A DNA stretch of 64,000 bases from Moniliella sp. 'wahieum'. Taxonomy: Eukaryota; Basidiomycota; Moniliellomycetes; Moniliellales; Moniliellaceae. Under the pieces are notes generated by a model that was not told the origin of the DNA, did not search any database, and worked only from the letters and a program-made list of their open reading frames with translations. Below, one piece after another: positions 4,601 to 63,825 of this stretch; the first letter of the stretch is position 1; each line of letters opens with the position of its first letter. A program made the translations under genes and the position numbers. The DNA lies in the NCBI GenBank assembly GCA_003971905.1, contig RSEE01000104.1, positions 62,001 to 126,000 of the forward strand, written 5' to 3'.

Positions 4601-6664
4601 GGTTGGCCGTGCCCTGGAGCAAGGCCAGCTGCTCGTCGGGAACTGTATCCTTGTTCTTATCCAGGAACCCGTCCACTTCGTACGTCACATCCAGCGCGTA
4701 GTGGCACACAGTAAAGCTCGATTGGCCAAACCGGGGCTTTTTAAACGCAGTTTTGTACTCGGGCTTGCGGTCAAACTGGGTGAACAGTTTGTTAAGGAAG
4801 GACTGGTCCGAACCAGAGGGCAAACGCGACTCTTCGTCCAAGAGGGAGAGAATGCCAAGACGGGACTCGATCAGGTTGATGGTCGGTTGGTTGTCGGAAA
4901 ATTCAATAAAAGTCCACTGAATTTGTTCTTTGACGTACTCTTCTTGTTCTAACCTGAAAACATGGTCGTTAAACTCATGTTGTAGTCGCTCGTTGGCATA
5001 GTTGATGCAAAACTGCTCGTAGCTGTTGACTTTGAAATGCTCAAACCCATAAATGTCCAACACCCCAATCATGTTCTTGCGCAGGTCCTCCGTGTCGGGC
5101 GTCAAGGCCAACGATTTGTTCATCTGCGCCACCAGCCAGTCAAACAAGCTGGAATAGATGTACTTGGCCACCGAATCACGCACCGCCGTTGCCATCACAG
5201 GCGACAAGCTCGACACGATCTTCTCGCCTCGCGTGATGATCTGTCGCTTGACCAGCCAGCGGCGGAAATCAGACGGATCAATGCCAAGAAGATTGGTGGC
5301 CATAAACAAGCTGGGGTCGTCATCCGACACCATCGCATCGTTGCGAAGGGAAGTAATCTTTACATTGCCCAAATGGAGCAAGGCGGCAAGTAGGCGGAAC
5401 ACCTGCCACTGCCGATCCACCGTCAACCCCACTGTGGTCATGGCCGCCTGGGTCTCTCGGAACTCGGCAGCATCGTCCACACCATTGACCACAGGATCAC
5501 CGCCCTGATTGAGGTAATGGAACTCCATTGGATCCGACAAGCCTAGGTTTGCGTTCCGCTTCGGGAGCACCGGCAACGAGTTGATAAAAGATGTGGTAGT
5601 TGCGCTCGGTGGAAGGCTGGTAGATCAATCGGCTGCGCTCAAGGAGGTAGGTGCGCATTTGAGCACCGATAATCTGGTATCGCTTGTCAAACAGGATCTC
5701 AATGTACTTGCCAAAACGGGAAGAGTTGTCGTTGCGGGTCGTCTTGGCATTGCCAAAGGCCTCCATGACGGGATTGGTAGCGAGGATGCGCTCCTCGGTC
5801 TCGCTCATTCCGCTGGTCTTGGGTGCATCCTTCTTGCTCCACACGGCGAGGTGTCCTCTTCGACACTGGCAAAGTAGCGCATAATGTATTGGCCGAGACC
5901 GTTTTGCCAGCACCTCTGCATCACATTGGTCAGAACCGAAACAAGAGAGGAGGAGTGGGGGGGGGGGGGCAAAGAGGCGAAGTGAGCAAAACGTACGACT
6001 CGCCAGACACGACAATTGTTTGGTCCTTCTCGTCTCGGATCATGTAGCGATAGGCATCCTCGGCAATGGCAAACAAATGAGGCTCCATCTCGCCTCGTTT
6101 GCGGCCGCTGTAGGCCGTGATGACTTCTGGGGAGTAGAGGTTCATAGGGAAGAAGGGGTTGACGGCGATCAGGACAATGCCCGAGTAGGTGTAGATGTTG
6201 CGTTGGGAGTAGCGGTTGAGGATGGTATGCAGCACTGTGGCAAGCGGCTGCGGTTAGTACACAACGCAGCGGGGAAAGAGCAACAGACCCAGACACGCAC
6301 CAGATGGCTCGTTGAGGTGGGACAAGTTGGTCAGGTCGTCGGTGGCCTCGAGCAGAGGCGGATTGCGCAGCGGGGGCAGCTGGCCCTCCGCCAGCTGACC
6401 CGAGGCGGTGGCGGCCGCATCCAGCGAAGCGCTCTCCTTGGACGCGCCCGCGGCCAGGGCAGCAATCTTGGTAGCGGTGGTCTGGAGCACACGCTCGATA
6501 CCTGTCTCGTCGTCGACAAAGTGCAGCTCGACGGCGCCGGAGCTGGCCACGAGGGGGGCGGCAGTGAGGGTGGCGCTGACCCAGCCGAGGTCACGGTGGG
6601 GGAACCAGGCGCGTGTGCCAGCCACATAGGGTGCGAGCGCGAGCTCGGCGGCGTGGGACGCCAT
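1680..6664 (-). CDS. MYO2: Class V myosin heavy chain (Myo2-type, actin-based cargo motor)
   Basis: Class V myosins carry vesicles, organelles and mRNA along actin to sites of polarised growth. The start is M-A-S-H-A-A at 6664. Exon 1 ends at 6301 and exon 2 runs 6234-5997, with introns 6300-6235 and 5996-5916. The second intron splits the P-loop G-E-S|G-A-G-K-T. Switch I ([15 protein letters not shown]), switch II (L-D-I-Y-G-F-E) and the actin-binding [10 protein letters not shown] stretch near 4450 are all visible. Six IQ-like motifs (about 4070-3670), a coiled coil and a C-terminal DIL cargo-binding domain (about 2760-1680) follow. The frame shifts at least near 5892 (A-K-Y-I-M expected), 5540, 4520, 3480, 2960 and 2120, each with family-like sequence on both sides. 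These look like sequence errors rather than decay. Confidence 0.93.
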
Positions 6665-26557: not shown

Positions 26558-29500
26558 CTAGAGCGTGCGCGACCGGGAGGGAGCAAGGGCGACGACCCTT
26601 TTTTTCGACTCAGAGCAAGCCGGGGAAGGTTCGAGTTGAGCCGGGACCAGTCCGCGGCGCGTGAGACGGTCGCGCAAGTGGCGTAAGAGTTGCAAGGAGG
26701 AATCAGCGAGGAGCTGCAAGGTCCAAAAGGATACGTTGCGGTACCGTTCCAAGTTAGCGTTTTGGGACATGACGTGAGCCGCTAGAGCCTGGTACACTTT
26801 ATCGTACATGATGGGCATGAGACCAGTTTGAGCCAAGTCCATGGACCCATCAAATTCGCTCAGGTCCATCACGATGCGCGCATGGATCGGGATCAGGGTC
26901 CGGTTCGCATTCATAAATGCTACAATTGGCCGGACGAAAGCATGGTTCTTGTAGCTGAGCTGGTTGGTGAAGAGTGGCACGGCCGCTTTGATGTCCTTGA
27001 AGCGCACGTCCATGTCGATCACCACAGTGGGAGAGGGACGTTCGAGCGGGAGCGGGCCTGCGTCGGGCTCGGAGGGGGGCCAAGGTCCGTCCCAGTCTCC
27101 GAGGACGAGAGCACCGCGCGCTCGCGCTCAGTGGGTGCAACCGGGAGGGGAGACGATGACGACGCAGAAGCTGACGGGGGCGCCGTGCGACCTGGCTCAG
27201 TCACTGGCTGTACCGGCGGCGCACCTTGTTCTGCTTCGCTCACGTCTGCCTCCGCCTCTGCCGACGGGACCAAGCACGATGCACGTGGGTCATCCGTGAT
27301 GACGCCCAAGAAGGTCTGACGTCCGTCCTCGGAGAAAAGACTGAGGGTGTCGGTCCAAATTTCGCCCGACTGAATACGTTCTTTCAAGCGGTGCAAAGCG
27401 ACGCGGACGCGTTCTTGTTTGACGTGAAGGGTACGTTGGCGCTCAGCCTCTGCTTCGGACGACAGGGCGACCTGGGACTCCTCGGCTTTCCTTTGGGCCA
27501 ACTGGGCACCAGCACCGACGGCTGTGACGGGGACCTCGATCGCCGGTTCGTTGAGGTCATGTTGGCCCGAGACAAAGCCTCCGCTCGGCTGGGGCGAGCG
27601 GACGCACCTTGCTCGACAGGCTGGGAGGATGGCGTGTGCGCGTGCGGGTACTGGTCCCTGTCGCGCCCGACCAGACCAGACAGGTTGGATGCAATCTCAC
27701 TAAAGATGGCGTTAATGTCCATGTCCTCGGTCAGGTCGCGTGGGAAACGCAGGTCGGCCACCACGTCGAACCGGCCACTGAGGATCCAGGCAATGGGGCC
27801 TGTGGCCTGGGTCGACTGCGACTGGATGTGGTCAAAGTTGACACCGTCGATGCGGATGCGGGACTGGTACGAAACGCGTAAAGTCAGTCTGGATTGTCCC
27901 CTGGGTGTGCCATGCCATAACCCCAGGAGACGGGGAGGGGCGGGGTAGACGTAAGGCAGGGGTTAGGGAGGAGAGAGGGGGGGAGGGACGTACCACGCGG
28001 TCCCATTGGCTCTGCTGGTTCTGCGAGCGTTCCTTCTCGACGGACTTGCCGACAGACTGGGGCGTATGGAGGAGAAGAGGCATCCATCGAACTGCCCCGT
28101 GATGGAGTTGGCCGAGAGAATGTCGTAAAGATCCACTGTTTGCGGAAGCGGGGCAAAGAAGCCGAGAAGACAGACATGTTAAACGGCCGGAACTGGTTGG
28201 GCTGGTAAATCGTGATCAGCACATCCTCCACGTCGAGTCGTTCCAATTCAAAGTCGCCATGTTTGGCAGTACGTCGTGCGGCCTTGGGTCGTACACCCGG
28301 TTCGGGTCCCAAAACACTTGGCGCCGATCCACCGTGCCACGCACACCACGTACCACCGCGCTGCGCAAGATGCCCTTTCCGTCCCACCACTGCCCAAAGT
28401 CCAGCTGACATCAATGCTGTCGACCGACAAGTCAAACATGGTAAAGTTGTTGTTCAACAACTCTTCCTCCAACCCACGCGCGCGCGCCGACATGGGCATC
28501 GCCTTCTCCTGGTCTTCGTAGTACATCCCGTCCCACGCATGGCCACTGTGGTTGTCCTGCGCACCAGGCAGGGACGGGGCAGAGGCGCGGTCGGGCGTGC
28601 GCCGCGTGGGTCCTGTGTGCCCGAGGCGGGCGCAGTAACAGAGGAAGGGTACATAGGCCTCACCTCTTCGTCGGCGTATACGCGCACCCGCCTTTGGCCC
28701 GCCAACACTTCCAGACGATCTTGGCGCAACGTTTCGGGGTCGTAGGAGGAGCGACGGGAGATGAAGACGTTTTTGAAGCTGATCCGCCCTTCACGCCACT
28801 TGGGCACAATCGCCGACTCGAATACGACGCTCACCCCCGTTTCGGCCGTGAGGTAATCGGTCAATTTGCGTGCGATCCAGTGGTCCAGGTTCAACAGCTT
28901 GGCACCGGCAAACACGACGCTGACAAACGTTGTCGTGCCCACTACAAACAGCAAGATCGTGCCCACTGAGCCCAGGGTAAAAAACGCACTGAGATCGTCG
29001 GCGTTGAACCGCCGAAAGAGCGGATGGTAAACCACTTGAACCGGATCTGGAGCCGCGTCCAAAACCCGCGCGCGTACCGCAACAGTTCCTCTTTCGTGGG
29101 CCGGTGCCAGGGGGGGGAGGTGCGGGTCGTGGGGATGTGGGTCGTGATCGAGGCGAGGGTGGTAAGGGTCGTCGTACAAGCGCGACCCATCGTGGGTTTT
29201 CCACAGCGGATCGTCGAATCCGCCCTGGGCCAAGTGGGCCGGGAGGCAAATGCGATGACGAAGGCGAGAGGAGAAGAGGAAGAGGAAGAGGAAAGAGGAA
29301 GAGGAAGGCGAAGGTGAAGGTGAAGATGCCGAGGCGTTGGGATCGGGAAGTTCGCCCCCACCAGCGCTGCTGGCGCCGCGGGAGGAGGGGAAGAGGTAGA
29401 TGAGGCAAGACGACCCTGCTGGATCTGACTCATCTTTTTGTTGAGCGAGGAGGGCGAGGTCGCGAAGGCCTGGCGGGTAGTTGTGGAAGAGTTTTGCATC

Positions 29501-29914
29501 ACCGGATAGGACATGGGGGGCGACCGAGTCGGGGGGGGGAGCAGGAGCAGGGAGGGGGGGGGCAGGGCTGGAGTCTTCAGCGACGACGGTATTGGCGAGT
29601 GGGAGGGTGTGGGGTCGGAGGGATGGCCGCGGGGGCGAGGCGCGGCCGAAGAGGAGGGCGCTCAGCATCGTTGGTGGTGGAGGCGGCCGGGGCGGAGGCA
29701 GAGAAGGCGCGGGCAGAGGACAAGGGGGATGGGGATGCGCATCGCATGCGCAGGGGAAGGGCGCTGGACAGCGGCTGGGGCGCAGGAGCGATGGTGGCGG
29801 AGGAGGGAAGCGAGGGCGCGGTCGCAGCACGGCGGCGGCGGGGGGCAGGGTGCGTGTGGCGGTGCGGGCGAGGGCGCGCGGGGCGTGCAGCACGCCGAAG
29901 GGGGTGGCCGGCAT
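26558..29914 (-). CDS. MDM31: Mdm31-type mitochondrial inner-membrane protein
   Basis: Mdm31/Mdm32 are inner-membrane proteins required for mitochondrial shape and lipid homeostasis. The N-terminus from 29914 is rich in Arg, Ala and Pro without acids, fitting a targeting presequence. Family blocks follow in order: F-R-R-F-N-A-D-D-L-S-A-F-F with the first TM (T-T-T-F-V-S-V-V-F-A), then D-Y-L-T-A-E-T-G-V-S-V-V-F-E-S-A-I-V-P-K-W (28850-28790). Next come F-T-M-F-D-L-S-V-D-S-I-D-V (28440), G-D-F-E-L-E-R-L (28260), D-V-V-A-D-L-R-F-P-R-D (27760) and F-M-N-A-N-R-T-L-I-P-I (26910). One intron is visible (about 27990-27904). Frame breaks near 29050, 28540, 28390, 28120 and 27510 fall between conserved blocks. 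Confidence 0.9.
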
Positions 29915-30265
29915 GGCGGGGGCGGGCGCGACGGTGTGTGGGAGGACGAGGACGGGAGGGCGATGCTACGCGTGCGGCATGCCGGGTGGCGGTGGTGGTG
30001 CGTATGATGGTGATGTGGTTCGCCTTCGCCTTCGCCTGGGCGTCCGTCGGCTGGCGAGCCAAGAACAAATTTTTGCCAGCCATCCGAATTGAAACGGGCC
30101 GGCGAGCGTCGCGTGCTGGCACGGCGCCAGTCTCCCATGCTCTCCGGGCCGCCCTGTGTCGAGACAAGCCTACTATAATCAATCCACCTATGCTGCCCTC
30201 ATTTTGTGGCCATTGGACCATCCCTCGATCCATCCATTTGCTCGTGCTTCTTCTCCTCCTCCCCC
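29915..30265. other. Spacer between AFG2 and MDM31
   Basis: This is upstream sequence of MDM31 and downstream sequence of AFG2. It is GC-rich, and no separate feature is seen. Confidence 0.3.
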
Positions 30266-33000
<2,735 letters not shown>

Positions 33001-33468
33001 GCCAACAAAATGGACCAGCAGCCTGGCCGGAGTTTACGTCACGTGATGCACCCGCTAGTAGTAGCCCCAACATCCAAACCACACTGAACAAGAGGTAGTA
33101 GTAGTGCGTTTGTCTGCTACGTAGCGCCCCGCTGGGTCGTGGTCCACAGTACTGCTTTGCATAGCCAACACCATTCCTTCCACACACACGCATGCACGAC
33201 ATCTTGCCCGCACACAAGATGCTGGCGGTGATGCAATCACGATATTTCTGGGCGACCAGGGGGAGATTGCGCGGGGGACAGGGGGGATATAACGGGCAAA
33301 AGAACGAAGAGACCAATCGAAATGCAGCTGACGAGCCAGAGCCACAGAAATGACAAAAAAAGAAGCAAACCAAAGAGAGGGTGACCAACCGTACCCGTCA
33401 CAGCCGCCGTCAAGGGGCCAGGGGAGGTAGGGGGGGAAGAAGGGGTGGGGAGGGGGGTATGCGCACGG
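33001..33468. other. Spacer between a convergent-free gene pair
   Basis: This is the upstream region of AFG2 and the 3' flank of the DPBB gene. Nothing coding is recognised. Confidence 0.3.
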
Positions 33469-34494
33469 TTAGGCAGAGTGAGCCTTGTTGGCCATTTGGA
33501 CAAACGCATTGTTGATCACGCCCAGGCGGTCAACGTTTCCGGCGGCAGGTGCCGAGGAGGCGACGCTGGCGCTGGCAGCAGGCGCGTTGGTGGGCACGGC
33601 CGAGGTGGGGAAGATGGTGGTAGCCTGCTCCGACACCTCCGATACCCCTTCCTCGAGGGACGCCGCAGCGGAGGCGGAAGCGACGGATGCCAAGCTGACC
33701 GAGGACGCCGAGGCAAGGCTGACGTGCGACAAGGACGCCTGGGAAGCCGCAGCGGAAGCGGCGGCGGCCGACGAAGCAGCCGCGGCCGAGGAAGAAGAAG
33801 CAGCAGCAGCAGCAGCAGCCGAAGCGGAGGCCTTGGACGCCGAGACGGACGACGCGTGGGCACGCCACGCCGAGGCGGCCGAGGCGCTAGAGACGGACGC
33901 CTTGGACGCCGAGACGGACGACGCGTGGGCACGCCACGCCGAGGCAGCCGAGGCGCTGGAGACGGATGCCTCGGATGCGGCCGAGGCGGCGGCGGCAGAC
34001 TTGGAGGCGGCGGCAGACTTGGAGGCGGCGGCAGCCGAGGCACTGGACGCGGCGGCGGCAGCATCGCCAAAGACCCAGGTGATGGGGATCTTTCCGGCGC
34101 CGAGCGGGGAGAGAAGGAGAAGAGGGCCTTGGTCATGTCGAGGTCGGCCCGCCACAGTTGCCCTGGCCAGTGGGACAGGCATCGGCGATGGTGGCGGTGT
34201 GGGATTTGCCGTTGGCGTAGATGGTGATGGTCTGGCCGCAGTACTGGGACTGGGCGTTGAGGTTGCCGTACATGGGCTGGGCGAGGGCGACGGTGAAGGC
34301 GTCGGGGGAGAGGGCGTTGCCCGCCGGCGCCGAGGTCGCCGTGCTGGATCTCGTAGAAGGTGCCGGATGTTTCGTGGCGGGCAGCGTCGCGGGGGTGGTG
34401 GGCGCGGGGCTGTGGAGGCGTGGGCGTGTGCGTGGGCGTGGGCGTGGGCGAGGAGGGCGGCGGCGAGGGCGCCGAGGACGAGGGCGGAGCGCAT
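33469..34494 (-). CDS. Secreted DPBB (barwin/RlpA-like) protein with a Ser/Ala-rich tail
   Basis: The start at 34494 opens a signal peptide (M-R-S-A-L-V-L-G-A-L-A-A-A-L-L-A) followed by a (H-A)n stretch. A six-strand double-psi beta-barrel follows: G-T-F-Y-E-I-Q-H-G-D-L-G-A (about 34365), V-A-L-A-Q-P-M-Y-G-N (34290), Y-C-G-Q-T-I-T-I-Y (34240), A-T-I-A-D-A-C-P-T-G (34185) and the closing I-P-I-T-W-V-F-G-D (34085). Such proteins are extracellular and wall-associated, and several are expressed at host contact or in wall remodelling. A tail of about 200 residues of Ser and Ala, probably O-glycosylated, follows and contains an exact-looking 66-bp tandem duplication. Frame changes near 34410, 34340 and 34140 fall inside the domain. 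Confidence 0.75.
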   Translation of the reverse strand: MRSALVLGALAAALLAHAHAHAHAHASTAPRPPPPRRCPPRNIRHLLRDPARRPRRRRATPSPPTPSPSPSPSPCTATSTPSPSTAARPSPSTPTANPTPPPSPMPVPLARATVAGRPRHDQGPLLLLSPLGAGKIPITWVFGDAAAAASSASAAAASKSAAASKSAAAASAASEASVSSASAASAWRAHASSVSASKASVSSASAASAWRAHASSVSASKASASAAAAAAASSSSAAAASSAAAASAAASQASLSHVSLASASSVSLASVASASAAASLEEGVSEVSEQATTIFPTSAVPTNAPAASASVASSAPAAGNVDRLGVINNAFVQMANKAHSA

Positions 34495-34907
34495 GGTGGC
34501 GGCGGTGGGGAGGGATGGGCAAGGCAGGAGCGGGGAGGGGCAAGAGAAGGTGGTGTGTGAGTGGGAGGAGTGCGAGGGGCTGTGCGGGTGCGCCCACACT
34601 GCCCCTGCGCCTGCGCGGGTGATCGGCGGCGGGGGGGGCTGCTGCGGCGCGGCGCCAGTGTGTGGCGGCGGGCGCAGCGCCACTGTGGCGGCGGGCGAGC
34701 AGGTGGGCTGGGAAGCGCGGCGCGCGGCAGGCACAGGCGCGCACTCCCTAGCACAACCCACCTTCACTTGCAATGTTGCATCCCGTGACCCCGCCGCGTG
34801 ACCCCGAAAAGCCTGCGTACGTCAGCCGCCGCCGCCCCCCCCATGGCGCAGCGGCGGCAGAAAACACCCCCCCACCTCCTCCGCCCCCCCTCATCCAGCC
34901 CGCTACC
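34495..34907. other. Divergent promoter region of the DPBB gene and MTR10
   Basis: The region is very GC-rich, with short C-runs at about 34830-34890 before the MTR10 start. No defined regulatory motif is recognised. Confidence 0.35.
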
Positions 34908-37859
34908 ATGAGTGGGCCGCCGACCATGACGGCCTTCCTCGAGGCCGCCGACGCGCTCTACAAGGCCAGCGACCCCGCCGCTCGCTCCCGCGCCAACGAC
35001 TGGCTCCAGGAGTTCCAGCAGACCTCCGACGCCTGGGCCGTCGCCAACGACGTCCTCCTCGCCCAGTCCCTCAGCCTCGAGCCCCGCCTGCTCGCCGCCC
35101 TCACCTTCCACAAGAAGGTCGTCTACGACCTCGCCCAGCTCCCTCCCGCCGCCCAGGACTCCCTCCGCGACACGCTCCTCGTCGCCCTCGCCGGGTACGC
35201 CGCCGGCCCCCGCGTCATCCAGAACCGCATCTGCCTCACCCTCAGCGCCCTCGCGCTCCAGATGCCCACCTGGGCCAACCCCGTGGGCGACATGATTGCC
35301 CGCTTGGCTCCGACCCCGCCACAGTCAACGTCCTCCTCGAGTTCCTCACCGTCCTCCCCGACGAGGTCACCACCAACAACCGCATCCCCATTCGTGTATG
35401 TATGCCCTCCCCTCTTCCTTGTCCTTCTCCTTGTCCTCTTCTTGCTGACCCGGACCGACGCTGGCAACCAGAACGAGGAGTACTATGCGCGTGTGCCGCA
35501 GCTTCTCGGCGCGCATGTAGAAGAGGTGCTGGGCCTGCTTGCCATGTACCAAACCGCCCAGGGCGTCACCACGCCCATCCAAGCCTCCGTCTTCCGCTGC
35601 ATGCAGTTGGCTTGCCTCGGGCGAGGTGACCGCCTCGGACTTTGCCGCGACGCCGCTGCTGGGCGAAGCGATCAAGGCTGGGAGGACCTGCTGTTCGACG
35701 AGGCGGTGGAGGTGGTTGTGTTGGATCAAGGAGACGCAAGAGATCCACGACAATATGAGTGCCATCACCTCGGTTGCGCCGCTGCTGATTGCGCTCGCGC
35801 CCCAGGTCCAACAGCCGGGGACGACGAGGACCGAGTGCGTGGGTATACGCGTGTGTTTTCCCAGGCTGGCGAAACGTGGTCGCCGCTCTTTGTCTCCCAC
35901 CCGGCCCGACTTTGAGCCGCTGGTCCAAGTCCTGCTCACCTGCACCGCCTACAATGACTTGGACATTGTCGGCATCACGTTCCGCTGTTGGTATTTCCTT
36001 GCTGCTGCCGTGTGGCGTGCGCAGGAAAAGGCGTCTCGGCCGGACCTCGATGGTCTGCGCAGCGCCTTTGTCACGCTCCAGGACACGCTCATCCGCCACC
36101 TCCGCTTCCCCGACGATGACAGCAGCTTGACCGCCAAGAGCGTGACGATTTCCGTGACTTTCGCCATGCCATGGGCGACACGCTCAAGGACTGCTGTGAT
36201 GTGTTGACCCCCGAACGCTGTCTCGCCCACTCGCTCGAATTGATACAACAAGCCATGACGCGCAGCCCGCTGAAATGGCAGGACATTGAGGCCCCGCTCT
36301 TCCCATGCGCGCCATGGGCACCCGTGTGGACCCGCACGACGAACAGATCCTGCCCCAGATCATGGAACTGGTACCACGCAGTTGCCTGCCAACCCGCGGC
36401 TCATATGCCGGCCTCCTCGTCCTGGGCCGCTACACAAGTGGGTCGCGTACCATCCGGACCGCATCCCCACCCTGCTCACCTACATCTCCTCGGCGTTTAA
36501 TGATGGCCAAGAAGACGTGACGGCGGCAGCGGCGCGGGCGCTGCGGTTCCTGTGCCTCGACTGTCGCTCCAGTTTGTCTTCGTACCTGCCGCAACTGTTT
36601 GAGTTTTTCAGCATGCTCAACGCGACCTTGTCGCGGGAAAACTACTGGAAGTGTCTGAGGCGATTGCGCATGTCATCTCGGCCCTGCCGCCGGGCGAAGC
36701 TCTAGAGATGCTACTCAAGTTTGTGCAACCTATTCTGCAAGCTGCCGCGTCGACGGCGACGACGGCAGGTTGCGACGATGGAGCAGCTAAAACGCTCGGC
36801 CGATGCGTTGAAGCAAGTGGATCTGATGCTCAAGATCAACCTGGAGAACGCGAGCAACTTACCGCCCAGCTGTGCTGCCACGGCCCAGCAAGCCTACCTC
36901 TTGATTGACGCCATGATCCAAGCGCGGGCGACAAGACGGTCATGTCGGAAGCGACGTGTGCGCTGCTGCGGCGCGGGATCCAGTTCTTTTGGCCAGACAG
37001 CCGTCGAGGTGGTACCGACCATGGTGCTGCACTTGGCGCAGGCCTTCCAAGCGTCGGGCCACCCTGCGTACGTGTGGATCGTAGGTGCAGCCATTGACAA
37101 TTACGGTTTGCGTCCTGAGCCAGAGCTGCGCGAGGCGCTCAGCACCGCATTCACCCTCGTCTCGGGCAGGTGATGCAAGTGGTGGATGCGGCTGCGCCGC
37201 GGCTGGACACGGTGGCGGATTGATTGATGATTATGTGCATGCGTGTGCGCTGGCTGCTCGACGGCACCCGTGGATCCTACTCTTATCGCCGCACCTGACC
37301 GAGCGGCGCACTTGGCGCTCGATGCACTGGACCTGTACCAGCCCGCTACCGTCCAGCGTCGCTAACCTTCCTGCGTGACTTTGTAGGACACGATGCGTTG
37401 CTCTTACTCCTGCCAGGGGGTGTGCCGACGGCGGAGATGATGGCCGCGGCGGCGCAAAGCGCCCGCGAGCGGGACCGACACGCAAACGCTCACCACTTTC
37501 TCCCTTTTGTTGCGGGGGGTCTTGCTTCGGGTCCTGCGCCGCTGGGGGCCCCCGTGGTGCACACCTTGCTCGTTGGTTTGACAGGCAAGTTTGATGCGGA
37601 GAGCAGCCGATCACGGTATCCATTCTGCGCATGTTGGCTTGGCGCGTTCCCATCGCAGTCGGTCGAGTGGGTACGCGCGGGCGTGCCCAGTCTATCCGCC
37701 AGCAACGTGGCCCAAGCGGACAAAGAAGCGTTTGGACGTCGTACCAGACCGCCGTCGCCAGCCACAACTCGACCACATCCGTGTCGCGCTCAACACGCTC
37801 TACGTGCCTCGCGCCGCACGCGCGAACGCGCTCGGATGGATCGATCCATCCAAGATTAG
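34908..37859 (+). CDS. MTR10: Karyopherin-beta of the Mtr10/transportin-3 family
   Basis: Mtr10/transportin-3 imports SR-type mRNA-binding proteins into the nucleus and takes part in tRNA traffic. The start at 34908 gives M-S-G-P-P-T-M-T-A-F-L-E-A, leading into the importin-N region (A-N-D-W-L-Q-E-F-Q, L-A-A-L-T-F-H-K-K-V). N-R-I-P-I-R ends exon 1, and intron 35396-35471 (GTATGT to CAG) joins it to N-E-E-Y-Y-A-R-V-P. Downstream family blocks include Y-N-D-L-D-I-V-G-I-T-F-R-C-W-Y (35950), F-R-H-A-M-G-D-T-L-K-D-C-C (36160) and W-Q-D-I-E-A-P-L-F (36280). The C-terminus A-S-R-R-T-R-E-R-A-R precedes the TAG at 37859. At least eight one-base frame changes interrupt it, each between conserved segments. 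Confidence 0.9.
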
Positions 37860-55055: not shown

Positions 55056-57095
55056 TTGCACTTCAAGCCGTTTGGCGCACATGCGTCTCCACACCTCCTC
55101 AGCCACCCAAGCCTCCTTGGCCATCCCAGCCACCCGAACCATGCCAACCACCTCAACAACCCGAGCAACCTAAGCAACCCGAGCAACCTAAGCAACCCGA
55201 GTAACCTAAGCAACCTAAGCCACCCGAGTAACCTAAGCAACCTGAACAACCCGAGCAACCTAAGCAATCCGAGCAACCTCAGCAACCTCAACAATCCGAT
55301 CCACTCGAATCATCCCACCTACCCCAACCGCCTGTGCTCCTACGCCTCCTCGCCCGAAATGGAAGTGGACTCACCCACGTTCACGCCACTCCCTTCCCAC
55401 CCCCTACTACGAGAGACGACGACCGCGCCAGGGACGGGCACGCTGGGCCGCTGCACCCTTGTGCGTATCTTATCTTTTGGCCCTGTGTGGGCAGCCCAAG
55501 TGGGCAAGGAGGAAACCGTGTTGTTTTCACGCCAACAGGATATGGTACGTTCCCCCCCTCCCCACCGCGCCGTGCACGTAACCAATTGAATTGGCATGGT
55601 CATCCGTTCTAACTCCTTCTTTTCCAGCTCATCTTTGGTGGTCGGAACGGGTTCAACCCGCGCCATCCACTTGGCTTTGTGCGCACGTTGCACAGCTTTG
55701 AGCGATGGGAAAAGATTGTGGATACGGGAAACGTAGGAGCGTTCCGATTCCAGCGGGGCGACTGGTTTTGTGACTTGTGCGGGGAAAAAATGTGGCGGTG
55801 GCGCTTGTCGTGTCGGAAATGCAAGACGGAGCATGCGGCAACGCGGTTGCAGGATCGGAACCAGATCGGGGTCAGCTTGACCCCGGCCGCACTGGCAACT
55901 GCTTGGGAACGGGTCAAACGGACGGAACAGGCCATGCTGTCCGCTACTCTCTCGGCTCTTCACACTATTCCTTCCCTTCCCTTGTCTTTGTCCTTGCCCT
56001 TGCCCTTGCCCCTGCCCAGCCCGGCCGTCTCTACCCCACCGCTGGCTCAGACGACCGACGTCCGCCCGCCTCAGCACTCCCATCCGTCCCATCCGTCCCA
56101 TCCGTCCCATCCGTCCCATCCGTCCCATCCGTCCCATCCGTCCCATCCGTCCCATCCGTCCCATCCGTCCCATCCGTCCCATCCGTCCCATCCGTCCCAT
56201 CCGTCCCATCCGTCCCATCCGTCCCATCCGTCACTTGCTTCTCTCCCCCCTCGACCGGGACGGGCTGCCGGACTGGGCATGCCGTCCGGGGTACTATCTC
56301 CCTTGGCACTTGACGTGCGTTCGCCTGCGCCATTGCTCCAACCCGTTTCGTCCCGCTGTACCCTTCGCCGCTGGCCGAGTATGTAGGGTACGGACCGGAG
56401 CCCAGTCGTCGTCCGAGCTTTGTCCCGAGCCCAAGCCCTACCCTTGGCCCCATCCCCACGGCACCTGCCACGCCCCTGGCCCAGACGGACCTCGCCTCCC
56501 ACCCATCTCCCACCCCAACCCAGCACGACCGCACCAACGGGACCAATGGGACCAACGGGACTAATGGGACCAACGGAACTAATGGGACCAACGGGACTAA
56601 TGGGACCAACGGGACTGATGCCCCTACCACCCCGCCGCGTCCCTCCCCACCAACCCGTTCTCCCACCCCACGCCAACCTCCACCTCGAACGTGACCGTGG
56701 CCACGACGTCGAACGTCAATCCGTCCTCGCATCCCAGCCCGAATCTGAATCTGAGTCTGAGTCTGAGCCCGAACCTTCGTCTAAGTCCGAACCTGTGTCT
56801 GAGCCCGAACCTGGGTCTGAGTCCCAACCTGAACACGAATGCGAACCTGAATCCGAATGCGCACCCGAACCAGAATCTGAACCCAAGTCTGAATGCGACT
56901 GCGACCGTGACTGCGACGACGCTGGATCCGGACCTGGTTTACGTCCCGGACCAGCCGAGCCCTAGCACCAACCCACCGCCCGCACTCCGTTCCCACCTCA
57001 GCCCGTTGACCCAGATGTCTCCCCTCCTCGCTCACCTTCCTCTCCGCCCGAGCGTGCGTGATACGCTTCACCCTACCAAGGGGTTTGACTCCTAA
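55056..57095 (+). CDS. RanBP2-type zinc-finger protein with three coding minisatellites (5' end unresolved)
   Basis: An intron (about 55547-55627, GTACGT to CCAG) joins F-S-R-Q-Q-D-M to L-I-F-G-G-R-N-G-F-N-P. The next exon holds G-D-W-F-C-D-L-C-G-E-K-M-W-R-W-R-L-S-C-R-K-C (55758-55825). This is a C-x2-C-x10-C-x2-C RanBP2-type finger, usually binding single-stranded RNA or ubiquitin; the usual Asn is Met. Upstream is an N-P-S-N-L-S repeat (55130-55300). Downstream are (S-H-P)n (56083-56230) and (T-N-G)n (56533-56620), then a repeated S-P-N-L segment. Open, Pro/Ser-rich frames from about 53700 probably belong to the 5' part. The stop at 57095 is the most protein-like end. Confidence 0.5.
55130..55300. 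repeat. Coding minisatellite (15-bp-type units, gagcaacctaagcaa)
   Basis: About twelve imperfect units of caacccgagcaacctaag type lie within the zinc-finger protein frame, read as N-P-S-N-L-S. Confidence 0.75.
56080..56232. repeat. Coding 9-bp minisatellite (tcccatccg)n
   Basis: About sixteen nearly perfect copies of tcccatccg are read as Ser-His-Pro repeats in the zinc-finger protein frame. Opposite-strand frames such as W-D-G are shadows. Confidence 0.9.
56530..56622. repeat. Coding 9-bp minisatellite (accaaygggac)n
   Basis: About nine copies of accaacggg/actaatggg are read as Thr-Asn-Gly. Confidence 0.8.
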
Positions 57096-57683
57096 GTTCA
57101 GCGTGTAGCTGGGATTCTCCTGCCCCCCTGACTTTCTGAACATGTTCTCTTTTTGACCGTCCCAGTAATCGTATGGCGACACTGACACCAGTACATATTG
57201 CTGGTCTTTTAGCTGATGCGTCCATATCATTGACAGAGCCTAAGGCTGGGACAGGGGGAATGCTACGTCTAAACCGAACCGTTCATCTTGCGGGGGTTAC
57301 CGGTTACAGACCTGGAAGCGCCCCCAGGTTAAAAGTAGCTTATTGAGTACACCATCGATCATCTGCATCATCAATAGTATCAGACGCAGATCACATGCAT
57401 CATGTATTGTTGCCACGTCACCCACCGGTGCCTTGCCTGATTCGTAGATGGGAAAGCTAGACGCTGGAGTTGCCGCGCGCAGGCCAGCAGGACACGGGTA
57501 CATTACTGTCCCACTGCTTGCTCTATCCTCTTCGCCACCACTCTCCTTCCCCCTTCCCCTTCTTCTCGCTCACCTCGTTACTTGATTACTACTCGCTGAT
57601 CGTCTGTGGTTTAGAGACTAGGTGTCTCCAGGTCAGAGCCTTCACGCGTCGCTAAAGTATGCATCATGTGCATCATGCAATGG
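57096..57683. other. Spacer between the zinc-finger gene and STE3; island boundary
   Basis: GC drops here. The only structured element is the dispersed repeat fragment at 57218-57280. Confidence 0.4.
57218..57280 (+). repeat. Dispersed repeat fragment shared with 62987-63054
   Basis: The order gcgtcca, catatcattg, cagag-ctaaggctgggacagggg, gctacgtctaaaccgaacc is the same in both places with a few substitutions. It flanks the pheromone/copia region and is probably LTR-derived. Confidence 0.65.
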
Positions 57684-59107
57684 TCAATTGATCTCGGTTG
57701 TAGAATGGATAAGCACTTGGTCCAGTCCCTTGCCTCTCAATTGGGGGGACGAGCATTCCATGTCACCAGCAGCTGTGGCAAATGAATAGCCGTGGTTGTT
57801 CCCCCTTGGTGCATCCAGCATTGACCCACCCGCAACTCCCACGTTTTGCGAAGAGGTAACCTGTTCCTGCCCACATGTGTAAAAGGTAAGCACCACTGGT
57901 GGGAGGCTGAACTCGATCGCCTTTGACCACAAATGTTGTGCTCTGGATAGATTAGTACCAATGACATACCGAGGATGGATTGCGGTTGAAAAGTTGAACC
58001 CAAAAGTAGATATCTTCTTTGTACCGCCGAACGAGGAAACTCTTGACCGCCTTGTACCAATCCCTGTACGCTTGAACCTGCTCCCTGGTGAATCCGTATG
58101 TAAAGAATATCATGAAAGGTACACCAAAGCGAGAAGCAGCGGTAGCATTTCTCCAGACCTTATCGTTGTCGTACACCCAATATGAGACGTTGTAGTCTTC
58201 ATGTTCAAATCCCACGAAACTTCATGAGAATGGGGAATTTAAGTCAGCCTCAAGCTACTGTTACACAAATAATGAATGTACAGTACTCACCGTAATGGTG
58301 CAAGGGCTGCTTCGCCCTTTTCGAGAACTGAAAAATGACCCATATAAGGTACAAAATGGCCACCGTCAATCCGAAAACCAGGAGTCGAACGAAGGCTGCT
58401 GGTTTGACTGCTCCCTTCGTACCCTTGATCAAAGAATCGCGTCTTATCGTGCTCCACAGTCGAAATGTACGCCAACTGGTGAACGCTATTACAGGACAAA
58501 TATTGGTTAATATTCCTGTGAGATATTAGTTCGACGGATCAGAGGGAGAGCGTACTTACCGGCATACCCAGCCGCTACCACAGGCAAAATCAGCAACCAT
58601 ATGAAATGAACGAAGATCCCGGGAACAGTGAAGTCGATAGGGGAGGCGCAGCCACTTGGTCCAAGGATGTCGCTGCGGTGCCCCTGCGACACGTATTGCA
58701 CATCCGGTGAGAACAGTCGGTATACCAACGCCAATACATATATTGATAATGAGAGATCGCTTAGTCTTGGCATGGTTGGTTGACAGGATGGCCAAAATCT
58801 CTCTAAACAAAATCACCTCAGTGCAGGATAACCCAGATAGAGACCACTGTTCGATTGGCAACGATATATCGCACCAATCAATGGTCGTGGACGGTCTGAG
58901 TGTTACCGCCGATAGCATTTTGACATTGGAATATTTCCAGATGTTGGTCGTCATGATCGTGCTTGACACGATCGAGTCGACGTAAAAGCAGTACATCGGT
59001 ACGCATAGATGCCCGCCCTTCTTGAGTTGCACAGGGAGGAGAAGAGCGACCAAAACAATGCTCAAGACACCGAGTGTACCTACGATGCCAGAGTATGCCG
59101 TTACCAT
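57684..59107 (-). CDS. STE3: STE3-type G protein-coupled mating pheromone receptor
   Basis: STE3-type receptors bind farnesylated pheromone of the opposite mating type and signal through a G protein and MAPK cascade. The start at 59107 opens TM1 (G-V-L-S-I-V-L-V-A-L-L-L-P-V-Q-L-K-K-G-G), TM2, and the W-C-D-I-S motif of the family. TM4 begins I-C-I-G-V-G-I-P-T-V-L, then V-S-Q-G-H-R-S-D-I-L-G-P-S-G-C, the conserved second outer loop. Intron 58559-58516 joins TM5 to R-R-D-S-L, and F-V-R-L-L-V-F-G-L-T-V starts TM6. Intron 58290-58220 leads to V-S-W-D and R-F-G-V-P-F-M-I-F-F (TM7) with a cytosolic tail. One-base shifts lie near 58700 and 58205. The last short intron (about 57969-57943) and the tail ending at 57684 are less certain. 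Confidence 0.9.
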
Positions 59108-59582
59108 GGCTGGTGTTTGAGGGGGATCGAAAGACTGAGTTGGAAAGAAGAGGTGAAAATGATAAAAGAATGTGGGAGGGCCATGTATATGTACTTCGGG
59201 ATTACTAAAGTACTATAGTGCTACTTATATAATAGGAGACGATCGGACGATGCATAACGATATGGGGAAGATTATCGATACTAACGGTCGGTGTTGTCAC
59301 GCGTGACTCATTCATTAATCATGCAGAAACAATTTTACTTACACATATTGACAGAAAGGCTTCACGCTTGAGAAGCTTGAAGCTTGAAAGCACACAAAAG
59401 GAGGCAAACGTTGTATATTGTCTTTGGCCTCCCATAAAGGCTGCCATAAGGCCGGGTCGCGTGCACAGAGAAATGAGCGTAGCCAGAAGCAACACCCCCA
59501 GAACGGGTTTAGCTGTGTAACAGTGAGTTTAATCGAAGGAACAATACCGGAAGGGGCGATGTTGGGTGACACAAAAAAGGAC

Positions 59583-59591
59583 ACAAAGGGA
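59583..59591 (+). promoter_or_regulatory. Pheromone response element-like site ACAAAGGGA
   Basis: This is an exact match to the Prf1 site described in Ustilago. It lies about 300 bases before the pheromone start and about 475 before the STE3 start, where such a site would serve both. Its function here is inferred. Confidence 0.5.
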
Positions 59592-59766
59592 ATGATGCAA
59601 AAGGGGGGGGAGACCAGAATAAAGCCGCACCTGCCGATACCCCGCCTTCCAGCAACATACATATCGGTACGTCAGCAAAACTAGCGTGGAAAAGGGGCCG
59701 GGGGGTTCCGGCTCAAGAGATAGGAAACAGACGATAGTATACTCTGCTAGGGATGGTGTGCATTGC

Positions 59767-59773
59767 TATTTAA
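59767..59773 (+). promoter_or_regulatory. TATA-like box of pheromone gene 1
   Basis: tatttaa lies 118 bases before the ATG at 59885. It is conserved at the same place in copy 2 (63531-63537). Confidence 0.45.
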
Positions 59774-59884
59774 GAACAGCTCATTTCCACAATGCCGGAC
59801 GTACATCACCACTACCCTCACCCACTCTTCTCTCTCTCATCAGCCACTGCCGACGCGCACCAGCACACCGTATCTTCCATCAAG

Positions 59885-60069
59885 ATGTCTCTTTCACCAT
59901 GTTCACCATCCCTACCAACACGATGGCGGCCGAGCCTATTGGCCCTGACCAGGACCCGAGTATGTAACGCAGCTCCGTTTGGTCTGATTCGACCGCCGCG
60001 CCCGTATGTTGCTAACACTGTGCTTTTTGCACGCCAGCTGGTTCCATGACTGGCTGTGTCATTGCCTAG
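59885..60069 (+). CDS. Lipopeptide mating pheromone precursor (CaaX), copy 1
   Basis: After removal of intron 59960-60037 (GTATGT, branch site ctaac, GCCAG) the reading frame ends T-G-S-M-T-G-C-V-I-A, stop 60067-60069. C-V-I-A is a CaaX farnesylation box, as in basidiomycete mfa/MF precursors. The full precursor would be 35 residues: a prodomain with P-T-N-T-M-A-A-E-P-I-G-P-D, then the mature C-terminal peptide. The first ATG (59885) is out of frame by one T compared with copy 2 (ctttcacc against cttttcacc). The in-frame ATG at 59899 would give a 30-residue precursor. STE3 lies next to it in divergent orientation. Neither exon looks like a gene by itself. Confidence 0.85.
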
Positions 60070-60663
60070 AGGGGCTTTCTGGTAAAGCCCTCCCAATGCC
60101 ACGGCAGGTCAATCCCCAATCCTCCCTCCACCGCTGTTAGGCCGCTTAGGCATATCAGCAGTTCTCCTTGGCATCCCTACGGTTGATGCTCATGTCTGCA
60201 CCTGTTCGGCCTGCAGGGATACTGGGAGGCATGCACCAGGAGGTGTGTTTGTCTTTCAGTCTCTTCTAGCGTGGCCCCGGTATTTGATCACTTCTCTTTT
60301 ACCTCATATATTGGAACCCCCCCCCCCCCCCCCCCCCCCCCCTCCCCCATAGGAGAGAGCAGACAGTTGGTGTGTTTGTTATAGACCAGAGAGCAGGTAG
60401 TTGTTAGTGTATTGCATTGCACATGAACTACAGAGGATAGAGAATATTCCTGCCCGCCAGGAAGGAATATTGCATGGAACAAACCAGAAGGTTCCGGACT
60501 TGGGCTATACCGGCGCCATCACTACACCAGTGTGGCGTCACATCTCCACAGCCCAAGGACGGTACCGACGGTTTTCCTCAAGCGCTCGAGCTCAATCCCC
60601 ACCAAAACCTAGGCACCGGAGTGGCCAGGTGGGGGGAGATCAGGAATAGGACCCAATTCGCGG
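60070..60663. other. Non-coding tract between pheromone gene 1 and the copia relic
   Basis: It contains the 3' part of the direct repeat and a run of 26 C (60317-60342), a likely weak point of the assembly. It also contains LTR-like sequence (60366-60480) shared with 14755-15050. Confidence 0.5.
60366..60480 (-). repeat. LTR-like fragment at the 3' side of the copia relic
   Basis: The sequence is shared with 14755-14790 and 14985-15050. It lies just beyond the polyprotein stop at 60664, where a 3' LTR is expected. No clear TG...CA ends were found. Confidence 0.4.
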
Positions 60664-61905
60664 TCACAGCGGCTCCAGGACCCTGTATGCCAGGCTCTTG
60701 GTGTGGAGGTCGGAGACGGTGTCCACACCTTTTATGGACACAGGAGTAACAATCCCTGCTCGGTTGCTCTCACGTATATCGGTGTAGAAGCGGGCAAGGT
60801 GGCGCGTCCCTTTGGCAGAACCCCAATATTCGCGCAGGCGACTGCCACGGATGAGTCGCACCGAAGCGCGAAAGGAATACCTGTGGAAAAGCACAAGCTC
60901 CACCAACAGTTCACGCAGCGCCACATAGCATAAGCGACACCCTACTCCCTGCCACATACTCCGAGTCGCCCGTGCTGCGTCCCACCACGCGCTGCTTGGC
61001 CGAGCGCCAGCCAACCAAGGCTCCAAAAACGTAGACTGCCAGGCCAGAGGTGGCCTTGCTGTCCCACCTTTCGTTGTAGCTGCTGTCGGTTGTAAAGTTC
61101 CAGCGGTGGGCCAACGGTAGAGTAGGATGGAGTCGGAGCGCTAGACCAGCAGTGTGACCCAAGTAGCCCCATACCCGGCCAAAGCCGTCCAGTGTTGGGG
61201 ACCAGGGTCAGCACAGAATTGTCCAAGTGAGCGCACAGCAAATCAATGTCCGGGCGGGTGCAGGATGCGATCCATCCTAGTGTTCTCACTTCACTGGCGA
61301 AGCGATGTGTCTCCTCCTCCGGACACTGTCGCTCGCCTTCAGCGCGGGGGACAAGCTGAGTCCCCGTAAGAAGAGGTTGACGATAAGGTGGCTCGCCCTC
61401 ACGTCCAAATCTTCTCGTGCTCGCCTTAATATAGTCCTCCTGAGAGAAATCTCCAGGTCGGAAGCGAAACGCACATTCAGAAAGTATGCTAACGGACCGC
61501 CGTCCTTGACATCCACATGTTGGCGTAGGCCCCATAAGAAGTTGTAGTATGCCTCAGCAGATGAGGCAGCGACGCAAGCATCATCCACCCATATACAGAG
61601 GATGATCACCTCTTCACCGCGTACACGGGAAACACGCACCGGTCGGCGACAGTGGAGGTGCAGCCGATGAGTTGGAGCAACCGTAAGTTCTCATACCATC
61701 TCCGCGAGCTCTGCTTCAGGCCATACGGGGCTTTCTTGAGTAGCCACACCTTACCATCTTCCCGCCGAAGCCCTTTGGCGGTTCCATGTACACGTATTCG
61801 CTTGGCTGGACGTCGGCATAAAGAAAGCGGACACCACATCGCAAGTGAAAACGGGTCAGTCAAGACGCAGAGCAAGAACGAGAAACGGTTAGCAGTGCCA
61901 TGAAG
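60664..61905 (-). pseudogene. copia reverse transcriptase and RNase H (broken)
   Basis: K-A-P-Y-G-L-K-Q-S-S-R-R-W-Y (about 61730) is the copia RT hallmark. I-W-V-D-D-A-C-V-A-A-S (about 61590) corresponds to the catalytic Y-V-D-D region, keeping both Asp. The RNase H part has S-T-G-D-S-E-Y-V-A (about 60970) and ends with D-L-H-T-K-S-L before the stop at 60664. Frame breaks near 61630, 61390, 61160 and 60930 prevent a single product. Confidence 0.8.
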
Positions 61906-62123
61906 CTTACAGTGGCGGCAGATAACGTAGCTGGATCATAGTCAAGGCCCGGGCGTTGAAGGAAGTCCTGGCCCACCCACCGGGTGCGCCGCCGAACTAG
62001 TCAACCGGCCTCGGTTTTGTAATGGCACCGGACAAAGCGGCCCCTCGACACCATGGCATCACTCCCTTTCGCCGGCCGCTGCACGCTCTCCCCAATCCCC
62101 CCCGGTCTTCCAGATTCTTCACC

Positions 62124-62742
62124 TCATTCCGGAAAGCTGCTCCCACTCGCTTGCACCCGCACCTCGTCGGGCTTCATACTCATTGCGGGATCCACCCACA
62201 GAGGGGGGACATCCCCACCATTGTCCCCACCATTGTCCCCACCATTTCCCACTGTGGCACAGCCGCGGAAATGGGATGGGACGGTTGATATGCTTCGTCC
62301 TAGTTTTGCCCTGATAGGGCCCAAAAATTTGGACCAACGACTGATTGCGCAAATCAGCCTGTAGGGCCGCCTGCCGTCTCGGACGCTCCGACATTGTGGT
62401 CCGGTACCGCAGCATCGGCGCGGTCGGCTCCAACTCCGCAATCGTGGCTGATGGACCTGGGGCACAGGTCCGTAGTTGGTGTCATCACCCCATCGTAACA
62501 TATCCCTCACCCAGGTGAGCCGCCACTGCGATACTGCCCACTCGCCCACTAGCCACTTGCTTTGGCCCACGTCGTATCCAGGAGGGCCCGAGGAGCACCA
62601 CGGCACGACAAGCGATTCTCCGATCCTCTTCATTCACGAGCGCATAGGCCACTGCACCAAAGCGATGAAGGTACCCTGGCGCAGCTGGTTTCTCCAGGTA
62701 ACGCGTGGCAGGATTCGGAGGGCCAAGCTTGCCGATACTCAT
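62124..62742 (-). pseudogene. copia integrase C-terminal fragment
   Basis: H-R-F-G-A-V-A-Y-A-L-V (about 62665) corresponds to the L-R-x-F-G-C-x-A-Y segment of copia integrases. L-L-G-P-P-G-Y-D, a G-K/R-rich turn and a T-M-S-E-R-P-R-R-Q linker follow. The catalytic core is absent. A tccccaccattg-type tandem triplicate lies at 62212-62252. Confidence 0.6.
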
Positions 62743-62986
62743 GTTGCGTATATACGCTGCGGCCTCAATGGCGAGCGGCCAAAGGTCCAGCCACCGCTGC
62801 GATTCACAGCAGTTTCAACGGCGGTGTTGAACGTACTAGGAAGCGAATCTTGGATACGACCGTAGACAAAGGTGTCACGACGCTGGGGTTGAACGTTGAC
62901 AACTTGTGCGCGATTACCTGATGCACCTGCAGTGCTCCCACTCGGTTGTGTTTCTGTTCTGTCACATGTCAGGTTCTCTCTAAGTT

Positions 62987-63054
62987 GCGTCCACTGCATA
63001 TCATTGGCAGAGCTTAAGGCTGGGACAGGGGAGTCGCTACGTCTAAACCGAACC
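62987..63054 (+). repeat. Dispersed repeat fragment shared with 57218-57280
   Basis: Same ordered blocks as the copy upstream of STE3, in the same orientation. It marks the right side of the copia relic. Confidence 0.65.
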
Positions 63055-63530
63055 TGTGAAAACATATAGAATCGCAGCAACCGGTAACCAGTAACCTCTC
63101 TTCAAGCCTCAGCTTCTGGCTCTTAATTGAACCCTGTGTGAAACATAGGTCAGGTGGAACAGCGAGCAATGTACACAAGGGAATTATTCTGCGACCCAAC
63201 AGCAGCCAACAGTCATATTGAAGGAAGGATATGTAGCTGAAAACATTGGATTGCCGTATGAAAATATGGCTCAAGGCTTTCACTGCCAGTGGGGGTGAAC
63301 GAGATTCGCTCCACCCACCCCGAACAGAGAGGGCGGACCTTCCGAAAGAGATTTGGAACTTCCGAAAGAGGGAGCCAACTTGCCGATACACCCCGCGTTC
63401 GAGAGCAACGTAGACATCGGTACGTCACAGAAAAACTGGTGTGTAAAAGGGGCCGCGGGGGTTCCGGCTCAAGAGATAGGAAACAGACGATAGTATACTC
63501 TGCTAGGGACGGTGCATTGCTATTTAAGAA

Positions 63531-63537
63531 CAGCTCA
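63531..63537 (+). promoter_or_regulatory. TATA-like box of pheromone gene 2
   Basis: tatttaa lies 110 bases before the ATG at 63641, conserved with copy 1. Confidence 0.45.
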
Positions 63538-63640
63538 TTTTCCACAATGCCGGACGTACATCACCACTACCCTCACCCACTCTTCTCTCTCCTCATCAGC
63601 CACTGCCGACGCGCACCAGCACACCGTATCTTCCATCAAG

Positions 63641-63825
63641 ATGTCTCTTTTCACCATGTTCACCATCCCTACCAACACGATGGCGGCCGAGCCTATTGGC
63701 CCTGACCAGGACCCGAGTATGTAACGCAGCTCCGTTTGGTCTGATTCGCCGCCGGCCCGTATGTTGCTAACACTGTGCTTTTTGCACGCCCAGCTGGTTC
63801 CATGACTGGCTGTGTCATTGCCTAG
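63641..63825 (+). CDS. Lipopeptide mating pheromone precursor (CaaX), copy 2
   Basis: Exon 1 is 63641-63716 and starts M-S-L-F-T-M-F-T-I-P. Intron 63717-63793 (GTATGT, branch ctaac, CCCAG) is followed by exon 2, 63794-63825, ending T-G-S-M-T-G-C-V-I-A and TAG. The 35-residue product has the usual layout of basidiomycete pheromone precursors: a short polar prodomain and a C-terminal CaaX box for farnesylation, trimming and carboxymethylation before export by a Ste6-type transporter. The mature end is identical to copy 1, so both copies make the same signal. The N-terminal cleavage site cannot be read from the sequence. Confidence 0.88.

Follow-up and report, generated by a model that had tools for sequence, protein, structure and literature searches.

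The a locus of the Ustilaginales, with its mfa and pra genes and its Prf1 elements, is described as a small cluster of receptor and pheromone genes (PMC3248468), and according to the legend of Figure 3 in the same source the pheromone-response element of the grass smuts is ACAAAGGGA. In Cryptococcus, the HMG-box factor Mat2 was reported to bind response elements upstream of the pheromone genes and of STE3 (PMC3744442), and the alleles of pheromone/receptor (P/R) loci can diverge deeply, as described for Cryptococcus heveanensis, in which the STE3 proteins of the two types are 54% identical (PMC2873909). Here, we describe a likewise small cluster, carrying the identical element, in a 64,000-nucleotide stretch (the window, to which positions refer) of Moniliella sp. 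'wahieum', which corresponds to positions 62001-126000 of contig RSEE01000104.1 (C104) in assembly GCA_003971905.1 (69.5 Mb, 223 contigs). The receptor and pheromone genes were found within 6.2 kb on C104 and within about 13 kb on a matching contig, C111. A first-pass annotation, made from the sequence alone, had read the association of a STE3-type receptor with linked CaaX pheromone genes as the P/R arrangement of basidiomycetes, and this was borne out by the Pfam match, by the linkage and by the presence of five pheromone copies in the assembly. We put at roughly 85% the probability that the locus is a basidiomycete-type P/R cluster, and hence a further example of a well-known kind of cluster.

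The receptor gene is encoded on the minus strand, with its start ATG at 59107. The piece covering 59107-58562 matched the Pfam family STE3 (PF02076) with 29.3 bits (curated cut-off, 29.2) over profile positions 2-127 of 292, and the piece covering 58719-58510 matched it with 37.2 bits over positions 123-181. Two pieces therefore pass the cut-off of the family to which the first-pass annotation had assigned the gene. The remaining two of the four receptor pieces were without a Pfam match, and further receptor exons are likely within 58483-58292 and 58203-57970. Hydropathy analysis in a 19-residue window revealed six separate hydrophobic segments across pieces 1 to 3; in piece 4, the expected site of the seventh segment, nothing exceeded 1.3. 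A sequence search of the PDB with one receptor piece returned no match at E ≤ 1. When the whole assembly was scanned with the STE3 profile (E ≤ 0.001), three matches were obtained, two of them belonging to the gene on C104 and one to C111, each adjoining pheromone copies, and no further STE3 was found beyond these two contigs. The receptor and pheromone copy 1 are divergent, as had been noticed earlier, their ATGs being 778 bases apart.

The product of pheromone copy 2 is a clean 35-residue precursor with the tail TGSMTGCVIA. Copy 1 is one coding base short (a T, after the first ATG), so that the reading from its first ATG misses the frame; from a second, in-frame ATG at 59899, 30 residues are read, identical to the shared C-terminal 30 and ending in the same tail. 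A DNA search of the assembly for the pheromone unit recovered five copies, two on C104 and three on C111, of which four hold the full 35-residue frame ending in CVIA. The earlier count of two pheromone genes consequently holds for the window, with the reservation that the first ATG of copy 1 is out of frame as assembled, and has to be raised to five for the assembly as a whole. Moreover, a scan of the whole assembly for codons reading C-V-I-A-stop gave 11 matches, against 3 for the reversed control, and five of the 11 were these genes. No paper carrying the tail was found in the literature text, a search whose scope left aside figures, supplements and proteomes.

The intron positions proposed earlier for the two copies, 59960-60037 and 63717-63793, proved to be exact. 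In the five copies the introns measure 78, 77, 79, 81 and 81 bases, and because the length differences are not multiples of three, yet the frame after splicing is constant, only splicing keeps the CaaX tail in frame; the sequence thereby supports the view that these introns are spliced. Of the 108 coding columns in the five-copy alignment, 1 holds a substitution (one C111 copy has L in place of I), and one more holds a gap, left by the T that copy 1 lacks. Of the 365 columns from the 5′ leader, the intron and the 3′ flank, 45 vary (Fisher p = 7e-5 for the comparison), and with 209 promoter columns added the non-coding figure becomes 84 of 574 (p = 4e-6). The comparison measures conservation since duplication and not five independent events. 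Copy 1 lies in a duplicated unit, and the sister unit around copy 2 begins near 63378 and extends beyond the end of the window.

The element ACAAAGGGA was found in the divergent promoter common to copy 1 and the receptor, 302 bases 5′ of the first ATG of copy 1 and 476 bases before the receptor ATG. It occurs upstream of four of the five pheromone copies, 300-480 bases away and always on the plus strand, the distances before the three C111 copies being 300, 471 and 480 bases. In the 40 kb of C111 examined these three sites were the only ones, against 0.33 expected (Poisson p = 0.005); across C104, four sites were counted in 214 kb, one of them at this locus and three elsewhere, against 1.36 expected (p = 0.05). 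The one-base-shorter form ACAAGGGA upstream of copy 2 corresponds to stretches of C111 that read ACAAAGGGA. The co-regulation of receptor and pheromone genes, earlier expected from their divergent arrangement, gained support from these elements.

From these features a response loop can be proposed, the biochemical steps of which are modelled on known systems. The precursor genes, read from the plus strand, would give the 35-residue precursor from two exons. By analogy, the cysteine of the CVIA box would be farnesylated and the end then trimmed and methylated, and removal of the N-terminal part would release a secreted lipopeptide of perhaps 10-16 residues ending in TGSMTGC. The STE3 receptor, encoded on the minus strand, would sense a pheromone at the cell surface and would pass the signal on, by way of a G protein and MAP kinases, to a Prf1/Mat2-type factor with an HMG box. 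Binding of this factor to ACAAAGGGA before the pheromone genes would, as in the systems already studied, raise their expression, and tandem duplication may lead to a higher pheromone output.

Table 1. Coordinates of the features of the P/R cluster and of its surroundings in the window
Feature	Position	Strand	Remarks
STE3-type pheromone receptor gene	57684..59107	-	Pfam STE3 match and hydropathy; 3′ end (57684) as in the first-pass annotation, unconfirmed
Receptor intron, likely	58486..58559	-	GTAAGT...TAG, 74 bases; read from the sequence
Receptor intron, likely	58220..58290	-	GTGAGT...AAG, 71 bases; read from the sequence
Pheromone-response element ACAAAGGGA	59583..59591	+	Divergent promoter common to copy 1 and receptor
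Duplicated unit holding copy 1	59629..60289	+
Pheromone precursor copy 1	59885..60069	+	Exon 59885-59959, intron 59960-60037, exon 60038-60069
One-base-shorter form ACAAGGGA upstream of copy 2	63175..63182	+	Corresponding C111 stretches are ACAAAGGGA
Pheromone precursor copy 2	63641..63825	+	Exon 63641-63716, intron 63717-63793, exon 63794-63825
Decayed Copia-like reverse-transcriptase remnants between the pheromone copies	60914..61935	-	RVT_2, frames broken
Myosin head pieces with IQ motif	3280-6039	-	Several exons, up to 385 bits
MDM31/MDM32-like gene, AAA ATPase, importin-13/transportin-3-like gene	28457-36204

Of the 60 kb of C111 that were compared (its full length is 196 kb), most follows the order of C104, the collinearity being broken by insertions and repeats, the third pheromone unit among them. 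Per kb, the two contigs show 26 substitutions within the receptor; the intergenic stretch next to it has 43, and six housekeeping stretches have 13-20. The last 16 residues of the precursor were identical. Two of the three strong homeobox loci of the assembly likewise had partners at 92-94% (C82/C105 and C11/C28); for the third, on C10, no partner appeared in the homeobox match list. The simplest reading of this pairing, and one that we infer, is that the assembly is diploid or dikaryotic, with about 35 Mb per haplotype. If C104 and C111 are two haplotypes, receptor version and pheromone are the same in both, and the individual would therefore not be heterozygous for P/R type. The first-pass annotation had expected a strain of opposite mating type to carry a divergent receptor allele and a different pheromone; this mating-type-discriminating role is left unsupported by C111, and it is therefore unproven. 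Homothallism, a compatibility system of homeodomain genes only, a hybrid, a same-type cross, pooled strains or a duplication would each explain such an equality.

Both assembled copies of the receptor raise a further question. On C104 the two STE3-matching pieces overlap in different frames near 58700, and this overlap leaves no room for an intron, so that the frame breaks there; by our reading of the sequence, a second break probably lies near 58206. Neither had been mentioned in the first-pass annotation. Between the two contigs, introns included, 31 frameshifting differences were counted in 1148 bases of the receptor, that is, 27 per kb, against 29 in the adjoining intergenic stretch and 5-20 in the six housekeeping stretches. 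In the latter (myosin, AAA and importin) the frameshifting differences are patchy and the short side alternates between the contigs. It is very likely that the assembly holds indel errors, and these would be a sufficient cause for the receptor frame breaks. Single-base indel differences between C104 and C111 are numerous, housekeeping stretches included, and gene models drawn from this assembly need care.

Several observations nevertheless weigh against the reading as a P/R cluster. No Pfam match covers the C-terminal third of the receptor; both assembled receptor copies are frame-broken, that of C111 in many places; and 29 of the 31 frameshifting differences are short on the C111 side. Substitutions between the receptor copies are only weakly biased to synonymous changes (of 20 clean substitutions, 8 are synonymous, where 23% would be expected; p = 0.07, with four further substitutions near gaps left out), and the bias was stronger in the myosin (23 of 29; difference from the receptor, p = 0.007), although the receptor was not clearly lower than the AAA gene (10 of 17, p = 0.33). 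In addition, the pheromone copies are related duplicates, whose conservation and common elements are not independent observations. Taken together with a frameshift rate that resembles the intergenic one and exceeds that of housekeeping stretches, and with the absence of frameshifts from all three pheromone frames of C111, the frame breaks and the weak synonymous bias could indicate that the receptor is a decaying pseudogene and that selection is left on the pheromone genes only. The frame breaks cannot serve as proof of it, because the myosin, AAA and importin stretches carry indels of the same kind, at lower rates, as expected from indel errors; moreover, three STE3 pieces, two of them on C104 and the third on C111, still score above the cut-off. 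We regard a decaying receptor as unlikely. Far less probable still, to the point of being nearly negligible, is that the CaaX tail is a chance reading within a repeated non-coding unit. The unit is indeed duplicated and lies near dispersed repeats, and six other runs of CVIA-stop codons exist in the assembly; but the codon scan against its reversed control, the conservation of the exons relative to their flanks and the dependence of the frame on splicing led us to reject this reading, and the tail is, besides, linked on both contigs to the only STE3 matches of the assembly and accompanied by response elements.

The alternative that deserves most attention adds to the reading as a P/R cluster rather than contradicting it, and supposes that the locus does not set mating type, be it in a homothallic species, in one with homeodomain-only compatibility, in a hybrid or in a diploid derived from a same-type cross. 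We give it a little under an even chance. The largely collinear contigs with one receptor version and one shared precursor end, the lack of any additional STE3 match and the pairing of homeobox loci all point in this direction, and a precedent may be seen in Trichosporon ovoides, a hybrid that is listed as A1, A1 (PMC6730849). However, the picture expected of two haplotypes of one individual would also arise if strains had been pooled or if a segment or the whole genome had been duplicated; the pairing is uneven, with the C10 homeobox lacking a partner and a homeodomain gene on C29 having three relatives; a divergent allele could be absent from the assembly; and for a homeodomain mating-type locus there are candidates only. 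A more specific version of this idea is possible, but we hold it with distinctly less confidence: the P/R cluster may have been freed from setting mating type, both nuclei carrying one receptor version and the same pheromone, in two and three copies, so that cells may signal to themselves and the response loop may serve self-fertile development, while compatibility, if any, would come from homeodomain genes on other contigs. If this were true, pheromone dose, not pheromone identity, would differ between the nuclei.

As a P/R cluster, the locus resembles many already described, and it yields a pheromone sequence and a receptor that are open to testing. What is unusual, and most worth following, is that two matching contigs agree in P/R version and differ in the number of pheromone copies; if strains confirmed this, it would be one more instance bearing on how such loci come to lose a role in mating type.

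Concerning the surroundings of the cluster, the RVT_2 matches between the pheromone copies scored 19.2 and 18.0 bits (61609-61935 and 61289-61690), both below the cut-off of 31.6. A dispersed element of about 80 bases was observed at 57221-57300 and 62997-63054, with copies on either side of the receptor on both C104 and C111; it has at least 41 matches in the assembly (from a scoring of 40 among 698 first-look candidates), and the majority show 93-99% identity across 70-90 bases. A perfect 9-base tandem array of TCCCATCCG occupies 56078-56232, with 17.2 copies and 100% matches. In the window, neither Rfam nor tRNA scans returned a match. Pfam scans of C104 were made on open reading frames chosen by highest third-position G+C. 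For the window together with the following 20 kb, these were 83 of the 147 frames with 100 codons or more, and for what remains of the contig 138 of the 161 with 120 codons or more; the scans returned housekeeping families and, at E ≤ 1e-4, none of the kinase, STE or homeodomain families. On C29, a gene at positions 158601-160400 of that contig combines a long N-terminal part with a homeodomain (Homeodomain, 31.4 bits over a piece of 48 residues); its relatives are full-length on C6 (87%) and C11 (85%) and partial on C5 (69%), and it is a candidate homeodomain mating-type gene.

Among the closest known systems are tremellomycete pheromones and STE3 loci, namely Cryptococcus MFalpha, C. heveanensis MFA1 and Tremella tremerogen a-13. 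The CVIA box is common to this precursor and to pheromones of Cryptococcus neoformans, Cryptococcus gattii and Tremella mesenterica as well as Mfa1 of C. heveanensis (PMC2873909), and the peptide end resembles the Cryptococcus alpha pheromone, since G-x-M-T-x-C is shared with the synthetic form of the Cryptococcus deneoformans peptide, QEAHPGGMTLC (PMC6772093). At 35 residues, the precursor is shorter than that of C. heveanensis, which has 39, and the coding region is here split by an intron. At the level of gene order, a myosin with an IQ motif, presumably of class V, lies on C104 about 52 kb from the receptor, and MYO2 is reported as linked to the mating-type locus (MAT) in C. neoformans and the Trichosporonales (PMC6730849). 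STE12 and STE20 are MAT-linked in the same groups according to that source, whereas here STE domain matches were confined to C46 and C35, and all 15 matches of the PBD domain (Ste20-like) fell on contigs other than C104 and C111. Homeodomain matches (PF05920, PF00046) were obtained on C10, C11, C28, C29, C82 and C105, with none on C104 or C111, whereas in the fused MAT of the Trichosporonales a homeodomain gene lies about 55 kb from STE3. A MAT organisation like that of C. neoformans or the Trichosporonales was therefore rejected, given that none of the STE12-domain, PBD and homeodomain matches falls on C104 or C111. The a locus of the Ustilaginales, with which this text began, is similar in its compactness; it differs from the present locus, where each contig has several pheromone copies that are nearly identical and where the two matching contigs agree in version. 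Finally, in Cystofilobasidium capitatum the precursors have 41 residues and are described as having no recognised N-terminal processing site, and the pheromone genes flank the receptor, whereas here both copies lie on one side of it, with three on the other contig; nevertheless, that species, like the contig described here, has one STE3 with two pheromone genes nearby, which in its case are identical, and it is reported to be homothallic (PMC8545103).

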